64,000 nucleotides of DNA from Liquorilactobacillus hordei DSM 19519 (lineage in GTDB: Bacteria > Bacillota > Bacilli > Lactobacillales > Lactobacillaceae). The position numbers were made by a program, and so were the translations under genes. The notes below the pieces were generated by a model that was not told where the DNA came from, did not search any database, and saw only the letters and a list, made by a program, of their open reading frames with translations. Of the stretch, positions 41,856 to 48,223 are shown piece after piece. Within the stretch, counting starts at the first letter, position 1. Each line of letters starts with the position of its first letter. The stretch lies in the NCBI RefSeq assembly GCF_019443985.1, contig NZ_CP049303.1, forward strand, positions 930,001 to 994,000, read 5' to 3'.

Positions 41856-42698
41856 TTAATTATTAGTTAGATACTGTTTACGATATTCGACTGGAGTTAA
41901 TCCGTGACGCTTAAGTGAAATTCGCTGGTTATTATACCAAGCAACATAATGTTCCACTAATGTACTTAGTTCACTGAGCGAAGTAACCTTAATGCGCCTT
42001 AAACATTCACGTTTAAGCATACTGAAAAAGCTCTCAACTGGGGCATTGTCTAAACAATTTCCCTTACGAGACATGCTTTGAATGAAATGATGATGTCTTA
42101 GTTTAGCTTGATAATTGGTCATTTGATATTGCCATCCTTGATCAGAGTGTAGAATTGGTTTAGTGGTTGCGGGAATTTTTTTAATGACTGTTTCAAGGGT
42201 TTGATCGATCAAAACACGATTGGGTGTTGAACTAACTTTAGCGGCTAAAACTTCATTACTAGCCTCATCAATAACTGTCGAAATATAACCCCATTTTCCA
42301 CACGTAAGTTTAAACTGACTGACGTCAGTATGCAAAACAGTATATGGTTTATGGGCCTTGAATTGTTGCTTGAGCAAGTTAGGTACCACCTGTCCAACAT
42401 GACCATGATATGAGTTGTACCGACCAGAATGTTTTGAAAAAAGAGTAACTTTCAGACCCATAGAAAACATAATTTTACGAACAGTTTCTAGACAAAGTTT
42501 AACATGATGCTGTTTTAAAACAAATCTCATGCGACGATAACCATAAGTTTGATGAGAGCGGGCAAATTCTTGCCGAATAATTTGTTTAACCTGACGATAT
42601 TTATCAGGCCGGTTTAGACAAGCTAAATGATAGTAATACGTCGAACGCGCAAGTCCCGCAACTTTTAAGAGCGTAATAAAGGGATAATCACGCTGCAA
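41856..42698 (-). CDS. IS3-family transposase OrfB (integrase core)
   Basis: 280 residues with the rve DDE core: HTDVSQFKLTCGKWGYISTVIDEASNEVLA (first Asp), ILHSDQGWQYQ (second Asp) and NAPVESFFSMLKRECL (Glu), plus the HTH_21 region CLNRPDKYRQVKQIIRQEF... TYGYRRM. It is one frame back from OrfA; an A-rich stretch at the end of OrfA (near 42726-42732) would allow a -1 shift producing the fused OrfAB transposase, as in other IS3 elements. A separate TTG start at 42698 is also possible. Confidence 0.93.
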   Translation of the reverse strand: MQRDYPFITLLKVAGLARSTYYYHLACLNRPDKYRQVKQIIRQEFARSHQTYGYRRMRFVLKQHHVKLCLETVRKIMFSMGLKVTLFSKHSGRYNSYHGHVGQVVPNLLKQQFKAHKPYTVLHTDVSQFKLTCGKWGYISTVIDEASNEVLAAKVSSTPNRVLIDQTLETVIKKIPATTKPILHSDQGWQYQMTNYQAKLRHHHFIQSMSRKGNCLDNAPVESFFSMLKRECLRRIKVTSLSELSTLVEHYVAWYNNQRISLKRHGLTPVEYRKQYLTNN

Positions 42699-42718
42699 TT
42701 CGTTAATTGTTTTAACTT

Positions 42719-43243
42719 TTAGTGCTGTTTTTTGTTTCGAATTACGGCATCCAATTTTTTTAGATAAACATTCTCAATTTTAGTATAGGAAAGTTCCTGT
42801 TCTAAATGTCTGATTTGTTTTTGTTGTCTCTCTATTAACTGTTGTTCGGTCTTTTTCTTGGATGTTTCTTTCTTTTTCTTAACCATCTTGGGTCGTCCTA
42901 TCTTAGATGAAATTACGGCTTTAATTCCAAATTGCCGCATTAATTTAAGCCAATTATAAACGACTGTGTGGCTGATATTAAAGTGGATGGCTGTTTTTTG
43001 AATACTGGTAGAATGGTTCAAGTAATATGTAATAACCGCTACCTTGAAATCATTAGAATAGTGCCGGCGTTTAAGCTGTTTAAGTCCGGTAGGACCAAAA
43101 GCTTTATAACGCGACACCCAAATTACTAATGGAGTATCACTCGGCATCTTATATTTCAGACACAGTGTGTGGAGTGAATTTTCACCATTTAAATATTCTT
43201 TAACTACTTTCAACTTAAAGCTGTAGGTATAATTACGTGTCAA
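42719..43243 (-). CDS. IS3-family OrfA (DNA-binding)
   Basis: I start it at TTG 43243 (LTRNYTYSFKLKVVKEYLNGE), seven bases after GGAGG, because the longer frame begins inside the inverted repeat; 174 residues. Two helix-turn-helix segments are visible (LKVVKEYLNGENSLHTLCLKYKMPS and FKVAVITYYLNHSTSIQKTAIHFNISHTVVYNWLKLM). A basic stretch and a Leu-zipper-like coiled coil (EQQLIERQQKQIRHLEQEL) follow, typical for OrfA multimerisation. Confidence 0.92.
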   Translation of the reverse strand: MTRNYTYSFKLKVVKEYLNGENSLHTLCLKYKMPSDTPLVIWVSRYKAFGPTGLKQLKRRHYSNDFKVAVITYYLNHSTSIQKTAIHFNISHTVVYNWLKLMRQFGIKAVISSKIGRPKMVKKKKETSKKKTEQQLIERQQKQIRHLEQELSYTKIENVYLKKLDAVIRNKKQH

Positions 43244-43291
43244 AAAAGCACCTCCAAAACTTGATTTACATGTCCAAGTTTTGTAAGGCAC

Positions 43292-43633: not shown

Positions 43634-44785
43634 ATGAAAATAATTGGGGTCGTCACAAAATACATATTACTAATAGCATTTGTAATGACAACCATGACAA
43701 GTGGGGTTTCTGCAGATACTGTAAGTAGCTTACAAGGGCAGCAAAGTAGTGCCCAGAAAAAATTAGATACCAATAATGATCAATTATCTAAAAAGATTAC
43801 GGCTGTTAATCAAGTGTACCAAGAGATACAACAGTTGAATGAAAAGAAAAAGGATACAGCCGCTAACATTACAGCTGTTAAGGAAAAACTCGAAGCTGCC
43901 AAGTCGGAAAAACAAAAGCGTGTTGCAGATGCTAAAGCTAGATTAAGAGAACTTCAATTAAGAGAAGGAACAAATGATACGCTTCAGGTTCTTGAAAATT
44001 CTAGTAATTTATCTCAATGGTTAGGTAATGTTATTGCATTAACTCGTTTACAAGCTGTTTACAATGATAGCTTAGCTGCTGTTAAACAGAGTGTTAATAA
44101 AATTTCAACCGATCGCAAGCAACTGGTAACATATCAAGCAAGTCTTGATAGTCAGGCGAAAGACTTAGCTTTGAAGAAGGATCAGATGAGTGCTTCGTTG
44201 AGTTCTCTAAAGCAGCTGGTGAAAAATAATCAAGCGGCAGTGGCAACTCTTGCTAATAAGGTTTCATGGGCAAAGGAAAGTGCAGCAAAAGAAGCAGCAG
44301 CACAGGCAAGTGCTAGTTCACTTGCTGTACAACAACAAGCACAAGCAGCAACAAGTAGTAGTTCAGCACAGTCATCAACAACAAGTTCTTCTGCAGCAGT
44401 ATCTAGTCAAAGTTCCAGCTCTACAACGGCTAGTAGCAGTAGTTCTGCAAATTCTGCAATAACTACAACAGCGACCAATGTTGTATCAACAGGTAGTAGC
44501 TCAAAAACGCTTACTATGCAATCAACCGGATATTCGACTGCTCAGAGTGGTTTGAGCTCTTATAGTGCAACAGGAATTAATTTAAGTCAACACCCAAGTT
44601 GTATAGCGGTTGATCCCAGTGTCATCCCATTAGGAAGTATTGTCTGGGTTTCAGGTTATGGAGTTACAGTAGCCGGAGATACAGGTGGCGCAATAAAGGG
44701 AAACATTATTGATGTGCATTTTTCAACTGTTGCACAGGCGCAGAGTTGGGGAAGAAGATCAGTTACAGTTAAGATATTGAGTTAA
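43634..44785 (+). CDS. Secreted coiled-coil protein with C-terminal 3D domain (putative wall lytic enzyme)
   Basis: 383 residues; ATG 43634. A signal peptide (~1-27, cleavage near VSA-DT) is followed by a coiled-coil domain of ~170 residues like that of PcsB-type proteins (SSLQGQQSSAQKKLDTNNDQL...). A low-complexity Ser/Ala/Thr/Gln linker (about 205-290) leads to a C-terminal 3D domain with its three Asp in IAVDPSVIPLGS, VAGDTGGAIKG and NIIDVHF. 3D domains resemble the MltA catalytic barrel and occur in wall lytic transglycosylase-like proteins. Probably a peptidoglycan-remodelling enzyme; substrate unproven. Confidence 0.85.
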   Translation: MKIIGVVTKYILLIAFVMTTMTSGVSADTVSSLQGQQSSAQKKLDTNNDQLSKKITAVNQVYQEIQQLNEKKKDTAANITAVKEKLEAAKSEKQKRVADAKARLRELQLREGTNDTLQVLENSSNLSQWLGNVIALTRLQAVYNDSLAAVKQSVNKISTDRKQLVTYQASLDSQAKDLALKKDQMSASLSSLKQLVKNNQAAVATLANKVSWAKESAAKEAAAQASASSLAVQQQAQAATSSSSAQSSTTSSSAAVSSQSSSSTTASSSSSANSAITTTATNVVSTGSSSKTLTMQSTGYSTAQSGLSSYSATGINLSQHPSCIAVDPSVIPLGSIVWVSGYGVTVAGDTGGAIKGNIIDVHFSTVAQAQSWGRRSVTVKILS

Positions 44786-44882
44786 TCTAATAAATAACTT
44801 AAAAACTCTGCATTTTTAAATAGCTTAGAAATTGAAATTTAAACAAATTTTTGGTTAATTGATGCTGATAAATCTAAATATT

Positions 44883-44919
44883 AAAGTTCTAGTTACTTTG
44901 TGACCAGAGCTTTTTTAAT
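44883..44919 (+). terminator. Terminator after the 3D-domain gene
   Basis: AGTTCTAGTTA pairs with TGACCAGAGCT (one mismatch) around CTTTG, then TTTTTT. Confidence 0.75.
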
Positions 44920-44992
44920 TTGAAATTAAATAATCAATTTGAATTTGATGAGTAGAGTGAAGTATTTTTTTAAATTAAAATCCAATTAATAG

Positions 44993-45021
44993 TTGACCTT
45001 TTAATTAAAATAGTCTAAACT
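44993..45021 (+). promoter_or_regulatory. Promoter of the leuA leader
   Basis: TTGACC (44993-44998), exact 17-base spacer, TAAACT (45016-45021). A start near 45028 gives a leader of about 205 bases before leuA. Confidence 0.7.
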
Positions 45022-45038
45022 ATATCTAATAAATGAAA

Positions 45039-45196
45039 GGAGTCCTTCATATGAGCATTCAATCAAATAATCGTGTAATTGAATTTGCCCTACTACTATG
45101 ATGAAGGACTCTGACAATATGTCGAGTCCTATTTGTAGTTAGAATGGGGCTTGAGCGGCGAATGAACGTCCCATTCTTGATGAATGGGGCGTTTTT
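45039..45196 (+). promoter_or_regulatory. Leucine attenuator (leader region of leuA)
   Basis: Alternative pairings are visible. Segment 1 (45039-45050, holding the leader's ribosome-binding site) is complementary to segment 2 (45101-45112). Segment 2 can instead pair with segment 3 (GAGTCCT, 45124-45130). Further on, GAATGGGGC (45142-45150) can pair with GTCCCATTC (45168-45176) as an antiterminator. CGTCCCATTC (45167-45176) can also pair with GAATGGGGCG (45182-45191), forming a terminator followed by TTTTT. With the Leu-rich leader peptide this is a transcription attenuator. How ribosome position selects between structures is not resolved by eye. Confidence 0.85.
45051..45101 (+). CDS. leuA leader peptide
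   Basis: A 16-codon open frame, MSIQSNNRVIEFALLL, behind AAAGGAG. It ends in three consecutive CTA leucine codons directly before the TGA stop. Position, size and Leu codons fit a sensor of charged tRNA-Leu. The peptide itself is not expected to have a function. Confidence 0.85.
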   Translation: MSIQSNNRVIEFALLL

Positions 45197-45233
45197 ATTT
45201 ACAAATATTTTTATAAATTAGGAGGATATAAGT

Positions 45234-46400
45234 ATGAAACAAATACAATTTTTTGATACAACATTACGTGATGGCGAACAGACAATTGGTGTTAATTTTT
45301 CGATTGAGGATAAAATAAGAATAGCTAAACAATTAGTTAACTGGGGTGTAGATGTAATTGAAGCAGGTTTCCCTGTTGCATCAAAGAATGATTTTAAATC
45401 AGTTAGAAAAATTGGACAGGAAATAACAGGATGTAAGGTAACAGGACTGGCACGTTGTGTAAAAAAAGATATTGATGCAGTGAGTGCTGCCTTAGGAGAC
45501 ACTCCAAATGGTCAAATTCATGTGTTTATTGCAACGAGTCCTATCCATCGTGAAGCAAAGTTACATATGACCAAAGATGAAGTAATCGAAACAATTGAGA
45601 ATTGTGTTAGTTATGCTCATCAAAAATTTGAGCATGTTGAATTTTCCCCAGAGGATGCAACTAGAACGGAATGGAATTTTTTGGTTAAAGCAATTCGCAC
45701 AGCAATTTTTGCAGGAGCAGACGTGATTAATATTCCTGATACTACAGGCTACACTAATCCAGAAGAAATTAGTGAGTTATTTGATTATTTAAAAGACAAT
45801 ATTCCTGAATTTGATGAAGTAGTATTTTCGATACATTGTCATAATGACTTAGGAATGGCAACAGCCAATGCATTAGCCGCAATTCAACATGGCGCAACTA
45901 GGGTAGAAGGAACAATTAACGGTATAGGTGAACGTGCAGGGAATACAGCACTTGAAGAAATTGCAACGACATTAATGGTGCGGAAGGACTTTTATCAAGT
46001 TGAGACTAATATCTGTTTAACCAAGACTTTCGAAATAGCTAAAATGGTTAGTCAAAAATCAAAAATGCAGATTCCTAATAATAAACCTATTACAGGAACT
46101 AATGCATTTTCACATGAATCAGGAATTCATCAAGACGGCTTTTTGAAGAATCATGCAACGTATGAGATTTTAACTCCGCAAAGTGTGGGAGTTGCACATT
46201 CATCGATCCCTTTGGGAAAATTGTCGGGTTCACATGCAGTGATAGTAAAGTTAGAAGAGATGGGATATAAAATTGATAAAGAGACAACTAAGGATATTTT
46301 CATTAAATTCAAAGCGATTGCTGATAATCAGCCAATTGTTTCCGATGATGATTTAGTTCAGATAATGAACGAAATACAAGGAGTTGCAAGTAAAAAATAG
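45234..46400 (+). CDS. leuA: 2-isopropylmalate synthase-like enzyme lacking the C-terminal regulatory domain
   Basis: LeuA condenses acetyl-CoA with 2-oxoisovalerate as the first committed step of leucine synthesis. ATG 45234 follows TAGGAGGATA; 388 residues. The TIM barrel has FFDTTLRDGEQTIGVNFS, SPEDATRTEW, the metal-binding HCHNDLGMA and GTINGIGERAGNTALEE; the linker subdomain contains GTNAFSHESGIHQDGFLK. The allosteric leucine-binding domain (~120 residues in typical ~510-residue LeuA) is absent. The stop lies 10 bases before the IS1182 repeat, so either this is a natural short form or the 3' end was lost. No leuB, leuC or leuD follows. Homocitrate or citramalate synthase are alternatives; the Leu leader favours LeuA. 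Confidence 0.88.
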   Translation: MKQIQFFDTTLRDGEQTIGVNFSIEDKIRIAKQLVNWGVDVIEAGFPVASKNDFKSVRKIGQEITGCKVTGLARCVKKDIDAVSAALGDTPNGQIHVFIATSPIHREAKLHMTKDEVIETIENCVSYAHQKFEHVEFSPEDATRTEWNFLVKAIRTAIFAGADVINIPDTTGYTNPEEISELFDYLKDNIPEFDEVVFSIHCHNDLGMATANALAAIQHGATRVEGTINGIGERAGNTALEEIATTLMVRKDFYQVETNICLTKTFEIAKMVSQKSKMQIPNNKPITGTNAFSHESGIHQDGFLKNHATYEILTPQSVGVAHSSIPLGKLSGSHAVIVKLEEMGYKIDKETTKDIFIKFKAIADNQPIVSDDDLVQIMNEIQGVASKK

Positions 46401-46404
46401 GTAT

Positions 46405-48211
46405 AAAAAAGGGGCTGTGCCATAAGTCCTAAGTGAAAGAGCTTCACCAGAGAAAGTAATGATTTTTCTGGTGAAGCTCTTTTGGTATAATTAAAAATAA
46501 AAAAGCACCGGTTGCAGCCAGTACTTTCAAAAACAATACCCCTATAGAAAGGATAAACAAAATGTATAATAATTATAACATAAATCAGACTGTACTTAGT
46601 ATCAAAACTGACTGGGAACCAAAAGAAAATCATCCTGCACGGATGATTAATCAAATAGTTGAAGACCTTAAAATTAAAGATCCCTACATCTTTGGACGTC
46701 CGCGTAAGTATGATCTGCGTGTACTTTTAAAATTAATTTTGTTTGCGTACACAAAAGGTATCTTCAGTAGTCGTCGTATTAATACCTTGGCAGAAGAGAA
46801 TTTGGCAGCCCGCTGGCTGACGCAAGAACAAGTTCCAGCCTACCGAACAATTTGTCGTTTTAGAATTTCAGATGAAGTTGAGAACTTGATCAATCAATGC
46901 ATTCAAAAACTAACCAAATATCTAAAGCAAAATAACTTTATTGATGAGGTTACTTTTATTGATGGAACTAAAATTTTGGCTGATGCCAATAAGTATAGTT
47001 TTGTTTGGCGTAAAAATACTGTTCGTTTTGACAAGCTTAATCGCTCTGCGATTATATCCCTTCTGGAAGAATTAAATGAAGCTAAATTTAAGTGTCAGCT
47101 CCCTGCAGAGACAGATCTTACTTTAGAAATGCTTGATGAAATTATCTTGCGGTTAGAAAATGACTTGAAAGATTTGAATAAAAAGATTGAAAAAGAACAC
47201 ATCTCTCCCAATCCAGACAAGTCAAGGCGTCGAAAACTAAAATCTTTAAAACGAAAACTTAAGTTACGGCAAGCTAAATTATTAGATCATAAAATGCAAA
47301 CCAAAATTTATGGTAAAAGAAATAGTTATTCGAAAACAGATCATGATGCAACTTTCATGCGTATTAAGGAAGATCCAATGCTCAACGGACAGCTAAAACC
47401 GGCTTATAATCTACAAATCGCCACAAGTAAACAATTTGTAACTGCCTTTGGCATTTTTCAAAATCCAGGAGATACCAAAACATTAATTCCCTTTTTACAG
47501 CAACAGAAAGCAGCTGGAACTTTAGGTAAGTATATTGTGGCTGATGCAGGATACGGTTCAGAATCAAATTATCAATATCTTGAAGATGAACTACCTGAAC
47601 ATACGGCATTAATTCCATATGGTACGATGCTGAAAGAAAATAGTCGCAAATGGGAAAGTGACGACCGTAAGGTCATGAATTGGGCATATCATCCTAAAGA
47701 CGATTATTTTATTGATCTGCAAGGAGTTAGATTTAGTTTTTATGCTTTCCGTAAGCGCAAAGACAAGTATGGGTTTATACGTGAATTTAAAGAGTATAAG
47801 GCAAACAAATACGATAACGATTTTCAGGTTGATAACCGAGCATTCACTAAAAGCGGAAAACCTCGTAAAATAAGTATTAATGGCACATGGGAATATTTCA
47901 AAGCTAAAGAACGCAAATTGCTTTCAAATCACCAAACTGGTTCAATTTACGGACGACGTAAAATAGACGTTGAATCAGTTTTTGGTGGATTGAAGGCTTG
48001 TTTAGGTTTTAGAAGATTTTCAGTTAGGGGGCTTGAAAAGGTAAAAAGGGAGGCTGGAATTGCCTTGATGGCAATGAATATTAGAAAATTGGTGGCGAAG
48101 AACACCAATTATAATTATTTTATAACACAAAAGAAGAGATTAGTGAAAATCAAAGAACGATTTTCACTAATCTCTTCTATTTTGAAGGACTTATGGCACA
48201 GCCCCTTTTTT
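46405..48211 (+). mobile_element. IS1182-family insertion sequence
   Basis: Perfect terminal inverted repeats, GGGGCTGTGCCATAAGTCCT (46411-46430) and AGGACTTATGGCACAGCCCC (48186-48205), are bordered by A6 on the left and T7 on the right. Strong internal hairpins sit just inside both ends (arms AGAGCTTCACCAG/CTGGTGAAGCTCT near 46437-46480; and GAGATTAGTGAAAATC/GATTTTCACTAATCTC near 48135-48175). These may stop outside transcription. No clear target duplication seen. It carries one intact transposase. Confidence 0.9.
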
Positions 48212-48223
48212 TACTTTACATAA
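46562..48223 (+). CDS. IS1182-family transposase
   Basis: 553 residues. An N-terminal DUF772-type domain (RPRKYDLRVLLKLILFAYTKGIFSSRRINTLAEENLAARWLT... PAYRTICRFR) precedes the DDE core with FIDGTKILADANKYSFVWRK, IVADAGYGSESNYQYLE and the C-terminal Glu region KIDVESVFGGLKACLGFRRFSVRGLEKVKREAGIALMAMNIRKL. The reading frame runs through the right inverted repeat, and its TAA stop (48221-48223) lies in flanking DNA. No internal lesions. Confidence 0.93.
   Translation: MYNNYNINQTVLSIKTDWEPKENHPARMINQIVEDLKIKDPYIFGRPRKYDLRVLLKLILFAYTKGIFSSRRINTLAEENLAARWLTQEQVPAYRTICRFRISDEVENLINQCIQKLTKYLKQNNFIDEVTFIDGTKILADANKYSFVWRKNTVRFDKLNRSAIISLLEELNEAKFKCQLPAETDLTLEMLDEIILRLENDLKDLNKKIEKEHISPNPDKSRRRKLKSLKRKLKLRQAKLLDHKMQTKIYGKRNSYSKTDHDATFMRIKEDPMLNGQLKPAYNLQIATSKQFVTAFGIFQNPGDTKTLIPFLQQQKAAGTLGKYIVADAGYGSESNYQYLEDELPEHTALIPYGTMLKENSRKWESDDRKVMNWAYHPKDDYFIDLQGVRFSFYAFRKRKDKYGFIREFKEYKANKYDNDFQVDNRAFTKSGKPRKISINGTWEYFKAKERKLLSNHQTGSIYGRRKIDVESVFGGLKACLGFRRFSVRGLEKVKREAGIALMAMNIRKLVAKNTNYNYFITQKKRLVKIKERFSLISSILKDLWHSPFFYFT

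Follow-up and report, generated by a model that had tools for sequence, protein, structure and literature searches.

A probable leucine-sensing leader-peptide attenuator before leuA in Liquorilactobacillus hordei and its relatives in the Lactobacillaceae

Introduction

The leu leader of E. coli and Salmonella carries a peptide with consecutive Leu codons, located inside the frame, before leuA, together with competing hairpins. In the E. coli trp leader, the hairpin that forms depends on whether the ribosome stands at the control codons or at the stop, and the leader ribosome-binding site (RBS) is said to be blocked by pairing. The enteric leu leader peptide is given as 28 amino acids in PMC6123439, where branched-chain amino acid (BCAA) attenuators are also predicted in Lactococcus lactis and streptococci. 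Rli60 of Listeria responds to BCAA and its RBS and ATG mutants super-attenuate (Brenner 2018; PMC5864092), a ribosome-mediated BCAA attenuator is described in Staphylococcus aureus (Kaiser 2018; PMC5794164), and a Leu/phe leader (RF01743) is listed for Lactococcus lactis in a table of PMC2864571. Rfam files rli60 as an sRNA; the literature shows a cis-acting ilv attenuator. A search of the open-licence literature returned no paper describing a leucine leader before leuA or leuB in Lactobacillaceae.

Here, we describe a leader in Liquorilactobacillus hordei DSM 19519 that very probably acts as a ribosome-mediated transcription attenuator, reading the supply of Leu-tRNA and controlling leuA. The leader lies in a 64,000-nucleotide stretch of DNA, analysed as a whole and called the window below, from a host genome of 2.44 Mb in three contigs. 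Its mechanism is of a generally known kind; the family has no Rfam match, and its own features are a tight ribosome ruler and a foldable Shine-Dalgarno (SD) sequence. The leader resembles the Rli60/ilv-leu leader of Listeria and Staphylococcus (RF02414), a ribosome-mediated BCAA attenuator in the papers cited above, and shares with rli60 leaders the order of a BCAA-codon run, an AGGACT-like R1, a AGTCCTATTT-like R2, a GAATGGG-like R3 and a terminator. Unlike rli60 leaders, the window family precedes leuA or leuB, uses Leu codons only, places the stop directly before R1 and occludes its SD. Compared with the enteric leu leader, the Leu codons of the window leader abut the stop; compared with the E. 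coli trp leader, the amino acid and the sequence are different and the window family has an extra competing arm. With the Leu/phe leader, it shares being a leader-peptide candidate in a lactic acid bacterium.

Results

Layout of the leader

The leader (45036-45233) comprises an SD, a 16-codon frame, a stop, a self-complementary spacer and a terminator, followed by leuA. Its parts, and those directly around it, are as follows.

44993..45021, + strand: promoter-like sequence, -35 TTGACC and -10 TAAACT with a 17-nt spacer (weak motif match)
45036..45050, + strand: leader SD and following stretch; the SD itself is 45036-45042, and 45040-45050 is complementary to 45101-45111
45051..45101, + strand: leader frame MSIQSNNRVIEFALLL, with ATG at 45051, coding part 45051-45098 and stop TGA 45099-45101 (from sequence and alignment)
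45087..45098, + strand: control codons GCC CTA CTA CTA (Ala-Leu-Leu-Leu), with the CTA run at 45090-45098; R3 is a further possible partner (conserved pairing, no covariation shown)
45106..45111, + strand: R1, GGACTC, ending 12 nt beyond the first stop base; partner R2 or SD
45124..45134, + strand: R2, GAGTCCTATTT; partner R1 or R3
45142..45153, + strand: R3, GAATGGGGCTTG, antiterminator arm; partner R2, the Ala-Leu codons or R4
45164..45176, + strand: R4, 5' arm of the terminator; its part 45169-45176 forms the antiterminator with R3
45182..45198, + strand: R5, terminator 3' arm (R4:R5 pairing) and T-rich tail
45234..46400, + strand: leuA, 2-isopropylmalate synthase (by HMM), 388 amino acids, with no Pfam match to the C-terminal LeuA dimer domain

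The SD, the 16-codon frame, the three CTA codons, the stop, the arms and the terminator all lie where the original prediction, made from the letters of the window, had placed them. That prediction also named a promoter: TTGACC-17-TAAACT is indeed in the sequence, and it is plausible rather than shown, since 44500-45700 holds two promoter-like sites, below the shuffle mean of 5.8. The complementary segments that it saw on both sides of the frame are present, but there are more competing arms than it named. The terminator (45164-45194) has 13 pairs and a T-run, one site being found against a shuffle average of 0.5. The leader as a whole folds at -61.2 kcal/mol, whereas shuffles average -41.1 kcal/mol (z -5.5) and none of 200 did as well.

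Copies in relatives

A 206-nt stretch of leader DNA matched 45 of 397 Lactobacillaceae genomes, in 13 of 40 genera, with the weakest matches covering the terminator only. From the fetched loci, a pattern search gave an alignment (A2) of 37 distinct copies, located before leuA (25), leuB (11) or an MFS transporter (1); these genes were named by eye from their N-termini, and among them the window's LeuA was the one tested by HMM. One of these copies, L124 (C3:2070109-2070233, MNNSMRNSFTIEFALLL), is a second leader in the same genome and precedes leuB. By eye, a trpB-like frame lies upstream of L124, and leuC- and leuD-like frames follow leuB. The leader pattern was not found at the loci L002-L004, from a LeuA scan of named genomes that kept 80 of 595 relatives, mostly distant organisms.

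A covariance model built from the 37 aligned leaders (M1) matched 106 of 397 genomes of the family and 90 of 246 of the order (E 0.01), and 27 of 250 of the class at E 0.05, a threshold at which the weak tail includes chance matches. Forty further places in the family were fetched, and lie before leuA (25), a Liv-type substrate-binding protein (9), an MFS protein (2), a family-3 solute-binding protein (2), an oligopeptide-binding protein (1) or another gene (1). The names are backed by HMMs at L263 and L267 (BCAA-binding type), L237 and L271 (MFS), L254 (solute-binding family 3) and L273 (Opp4A-like), and the remaining seven Liv-type cases were named by eye from similar sequence. Fourteen of the 40, with another frame build or a non-leu gene, were dropped from the SD and spacing tests (L254, L259, L261, L263, L264, L266, L267 and L270-L276; the MFS locus L237 was kept), and the 26 others join the 37 aligned copies in a set of 63. 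L254/L261, L259 and L271 are uncertain members of the family. Of the ten class-wide matches above E 0.003, all but L230 were inspected: L226, L228, L229 and L231-L234 had neither a leader frame nor a BCAA gene and were rejected; the weak class-wide matches L227 (before ilvD) and L236 (before leuA) look real.

Leucine codons

The frame and an SD-like stretch are present in all 37 aligned copies, with a weak SD in L104. Three consecutive Leu codons occur in 36 of the 37, the remaining copy (L121) reading VLLV, and 33 end in ALLL followed by the stop. Over the 63 copies the peptide ends in ALLL (58), VLLL (3), ALLLC (1) or VLLV (1). In the 37 copies, the codons after Ala or Val encode Leu at 110 of 111 positions (CTA 63, TTA 31, CTC 8, TTG 7, CTG 1; the other is GTC), the stops are TGA (28), TAA (6) and TAG (3), and the peptide outside the Leu run varies between genera. 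Thus, as read from the alignment, the conserved feature is amino-acid identity, and neither a fixed codon nor a fixed peptide. Among ilvD leaders of other families, 27 of 29 peptides hold Ile, Leu and Val, and two hold Ile and Leu without Val (residues were counted over the whole peptide, in the I/L/V-richest frame as chosen by a script). The leader codons therefore follow the pathway, since ilvD leaders mix Ile, Leu and Val while leu leaders hold Leu.

Pairing and covariation of the competing arms

In the alignment, R1 (45106-45111) pairs with R2 (45124-45129), a helix extended by GACA:TGTC in many copies, and a longer R2, reaching 45134, pairs with R3 (45142-45153). RNAalifold selects the R2:R3 hairpin together with the terminator. 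Across the 37 rows, R1:R2 is paired in 96.5% of cells, R2:R3 in 98.0% and R4:R5 in 98.3%; 1 of the 12 R2:R3 pairs and 8 of the 11 R4:R5 pairs show two-sided changes. The prediction that the 5' arm of the terminator pairs with an upstream antiterminator is borne out: R3:R4 is paired in 100% of cells (296 of 296), with compensatory two-sided changes at 2 of 8 pairs. Taken as one structure, R1:R2 and R3:R4 show 13 two-sided cells over 4 pairs, and 0 of 500 shuffles scored as high on any of five measures. R2:R3 and R4:R5 as one structure show 55 two-sided cells over 9 pairs; on four measures none of 500 shuffles scored as high, and on the fifth 230 did. Shifting the partner by 1-3 columns reduced pairing to 29-53%. 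R1-R3 are near-constant, and few of their pairs can therefore testify by covariation; R1 reads GGATTT in place of GGACTC in 7 of the 63 copies, all among the 26 further ones. The helix between the Ala-Leu codons and R3 is paired in 93.9% of cells, with 40, 191, 40, 426 and 40 of 500 shuffles as high on the five measures; it is thus pairing-compatible rather than proven, as none of the measures separates it from shuffles at the 5% level.

Readout of ribosome position

R1 ends 12 nt from the first base of the stop in 32 of the 37 aligned copies, 11 nt from it in three, 13 in one and 9 in one; among the 26 further copies the distance is 12 nt in 13 and 11 in 13, giving 11-12 nt in 61 of 63. Toeprinting places the leading edge of the ribosome at P-site +15, a value that we used in folding rather than computed. 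With this edge, R1 lies wholly under a ribosome at the stop and wholly clear of one waiting for the first or second Leu codon.

We folded each copy from the ribosome edge to just past the end of R4, at equilibrium rather than co-transcriptionally. The mean probability of R3:R4 over the 37 copies was 0.87 with the ribosome waiting at Leu1, 0.76 at Leu2, 0.21 at Leu3, 0.11 at the stop and 0.30 untranslated, and exceeded 0.5 in 34, 28, 8, 4 and 12 of the 37 copies, respectively. The window copy gave 1.00, 1.00, 0.19, 0.02 and 0.22. Scanning the edge of the window copy in 2-nt steps showed a read-through plateau that begins at 45088, within the Ala codon, and lasts to 45106, where R1 starts; the values then drop to 0.19 at 45108 and 0.02 at 45110. 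Averaged over the 37 copies, the probability fell from 0.86 just before R1 to 0.51 at its first base and 0.21 at its third. In this folding model the off-edge is sharp, and the on-range also appears to include stalls on codons just before the Leu run: since the plateau is wider than the Leu codons, stalls at a few pre-Leu codons would read through too. Specificity for leucine would therefore rest on codon conservation, because the plateau exceeds the Leu run.

Overall, the predicted hairpins switch with the footprint of the ribosome in the way originally proposed, with the choice between R1:R2 and R2:R3 adding a layer, and the Leu codons, stop, arms and spacing are kept in the alignment of relatives, a conservation that rules out a chance origin of the leader. 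Codon conservation, covarying arms and footprint-dependent folding together support the central proposal of Leu-specific leader-peptide attenuation.

Occlusion of the leader Shine-Dalgarno sequence

The original prediction further held that the leader's own ribosome-binding site can pair with the sequence just after its stop codon. In the window copy this helix has 11 bp (45040-45050 with 45101-45111), and 0 of 300 shuffles of the partner region were as good, but by pairing counts the constant partner of the post-stop segment is 45124-45129. SD occlusion itself is found through the family, although it is built differently in the window's genus and in other genera. Over the 63 copies, pairing of the SD with downstream sequence averaged -14.4 kcal/mol, compared with -9.7 with SD and leader swapped between copies, and reached p<0.05 in 42 of 63 copies with 200 shuffles and in 41 of 63 with 300. 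In 43 of the 63, the partner of the SD lies within the frame, before the Leu codons ("in-frame build"): 32 of these 43 pass shuffling, and their own partners scored -16.06 compared with -10.92 for permuted ones (none of 5000 permutations did as well, and the own partner ranked first in 10 of 38 distinct copies). In the other 20 the partner is R1 ("post-stop build"); they include 19 of the 20 copies of the window's genus, the exception (L093) being in-frame, plus L106 from another genus.

What the helix does in the window's genus carries moderate weight only. Without translation, the window copy has a probability of SD:R1 of 0.68, and its read-through fold is at 0.22 with the SD and 0.86 without; the mean over the 20 post-stop copies is 0.20 with the SD and 0.56 without, compared with 0.43 and 0.39, hardly a change, in 17 in-frame copies tested. 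SD:R1 stands at 0.68-1.00 in 12 of the 20 post-stop copies and at 0.00 in 8, including L083-L085 and L124. Our weighting follows from these eight copies, from the close relatives L083-L085, which favour R3:R4 read-through when untranslated (0.84-0.99), and from L089, which favours it (0.72) despite SD:R1 at 0.99. There is a substantial chance, if somewhat short of even, that within the genus the pairing is a by-product, with R1 fixed by R2 and GGAGTCC simply a good SD that has no further role. Such a by-product would fit the copies with SD:R1 at 0.00, the 9 of 20 post-stop copies that pass shuffling at p<0.05 (the window copy included), and post-stop partners that are no better than permuted ones (-12.33 compared with -12.04 kcal/mol over 14 distinct copies; 1234 of 5000 as good; own best in 2 of 14). 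It fits less well with the 12 copies in which SD:R1 predominates, with the shift in window read-through on removing the SD, and with the covariation of SD occlusion in the in-frame class.

Matches to known leader families

No Rfam family reaches its cut-off in the leader region; the best matches in a permissive search are with PyrR, 26 bits against a cut-off of 54, and with rli60 (RF02414), 25.2 bits (E 0.46) against a cut-off of 60. The rli60 model has no match in the window's own genome at E 0.01, the Rfam T-box model has none in the window, and Leu_leader has none to the window leader up to E 10; the Leu/phe leader (RF01743) is not among the eight Rfam matches up to E 10. By comparison, a model built from 25 ilvD leaders detects the window leader at 52.8 bits (E 4.2e-8), with the next best match in the window at 0.058. 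Applied to 30 Lactobacillaceae loci, it finds the 25 leu-type ones at E 1.6e-4 or better (counting L121, before the MFS gene). Of five transporter loci, four score 0.0012-0.038 and L263 scores 0.085, and these are not clearly above background because antisense terminator matches reach 0.0014. The rli60 model itself matches 6 of 101 genomes of the class, five of them above cut-off, and M1 overlaps all six places; five of the six were inspected, and all five lie before ilvD. This cross-detection between models supports, and does not prove, common descent, since the ilvD leaders were found with M1. The rli60 model also matches ilvD leaders in Staphylococcus-like genomes. Genomes with ilvD leaders are labelled Listeria-, Staphylococcus- or enterococcus-like here from kinship and rli60 matches, and the labels are probable assignments.

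Discussion

In the mechanism that we propose, a ribosome would load on the leader while RNA polymerase moves on. When leucine is short, the ribosome would wait with Leu codon 1 or 2 in its A site and its leading edge at about 45102-45105, covering the Ala-Leu codons and leaving R1 free. Free R1 would pair with R2, leaving R3 free to pair with R4, so that no terminator forms and leuA is transcribed. With ample leucine, the ribosome would reach the stop and, with its edge at about 45111, cover R1; R2:R3 and then R4:R5 would form, and transcription would end. Without a ribosome, most copies would keep R3 paired with R2 or with the Ala-Leu codons and favour termination, in the window copy with help from the SD, which would take R1. 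Counter to this scheme, the folding favours R3:R4 in 12 of 37 copies untranslated and in 4 of 37 with the ribosome at the stop.

Two other readings of the leader bear on this assignment. TnaC undergoes nascent-peptide arrest at its stop in response to tryptophan, and by analogy the ALLL-stop end could stall the ribosome on leucine or another ligand and so set the fold, with no part for codon hunger. The Leu run does abut the stop in 61 of 63 copies, with ALLL or VLLL ends, but this adjacency is equally explained by the spacing that ribosome reach demands; the remaining peptide differs between genera, and the ilvD leaders, of the same build, finish in I/L/V strings that vary, and in some of them the stop lies beyond R1. 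We consider arrest of this kind improbable. Less probable still, and very unlikely in our estimate, is that the leader is a riboswitch, a T-box or a protein-binding, PyrR-like element in which the short frame is incidental: the weak similarity to PyrR is what speaks for it, set against the searches that yield neither a family at cut-off in the region nor a T-box in the window, and against Leu residues and a stop spacing that are conserved while codons change. Attenuation by a ribosome waiting for Leu-tRNA is thus the reading that we carry forward.

More tentatively, and with rather less than an even chance of being right, the leaders may descend from one ancient BCAA leader (R1-R2-R3), seen before ilvD in Listeria, Staphylococcus and enterococcus-like genomes and in a Lactobacillaceae Leu regulon of leuA, leuBCD, Liv-type and peptide transporters and MFS proteins. 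In such a leader the ribosome edge would be read to about one codon and the SD would be part of the switch: in the window's genus the SD would mimic R2 and take R1 when unloaded, causing termination, and in other genera it would be held in an in-frame helix. Our data suggest a link between Lactobacillaceae leu leaders and rli60 ilv leaders, and point to many Lactobacillaceae using leader-peptide attenuation to put their leu genes under leucine control. The near-constant stop-to-R1 distance is a natural ruler of the ribosome edge, and offers a clean test of position-coded attenuation.

From the leader family, several transporters are also predicted to be under leucine control; the leaders before their genes are more divergent than those before leuA and leuB. 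Leaders that hold an ALLL run precede Liv-type BCAA-binding genes at nine loci (L263, L264, L266, L267, L270, L272, L274, L275 and L276; the gene was tested by HMM at L263 and L267), with the stop further downstream than in leu leaders. Related leaders lie before an oligopeptide-binding protein (L273), family-3 solute-binding proteins (L254 and L261) and MFS proteins (L121, L237 and L271), two of which, at L237 and L271, are similar to the aromatic acid/H+ symport type. From sequence, it is possible that these transporters are under leucine or BCAA control.

The window's genome has leuA and leuB and no match to ilvD, a gene present in 14 of 14 control genomes; leucine is therefore presumably made from valine-derived 2-oxoisovalerate. 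The window's LeuA matches the Pfam HMGL-like and HCS_D2 families, and as it has no match to the C-terminal regulatory domain, most of the leucine feedback may fall to attenuation. In 11 other genomes of the genus, the relatives of LeuA have open frames of 389-403 amino acids, so the short LeuA does not look like a truncation by the downstream insertion sequence. Transposase-like genes flank leuA and its upstream neighbour (41856-43291 and 46562-48223); the downstream one is of the IS1182 family by HMM, and the upstream pair was judged by eye. For the IS1182 transposase region after leuA, the best two of seven plasmid records come from Liquorilactobacillus hordei and L. nagelii, at 93.2% identity over 94%.
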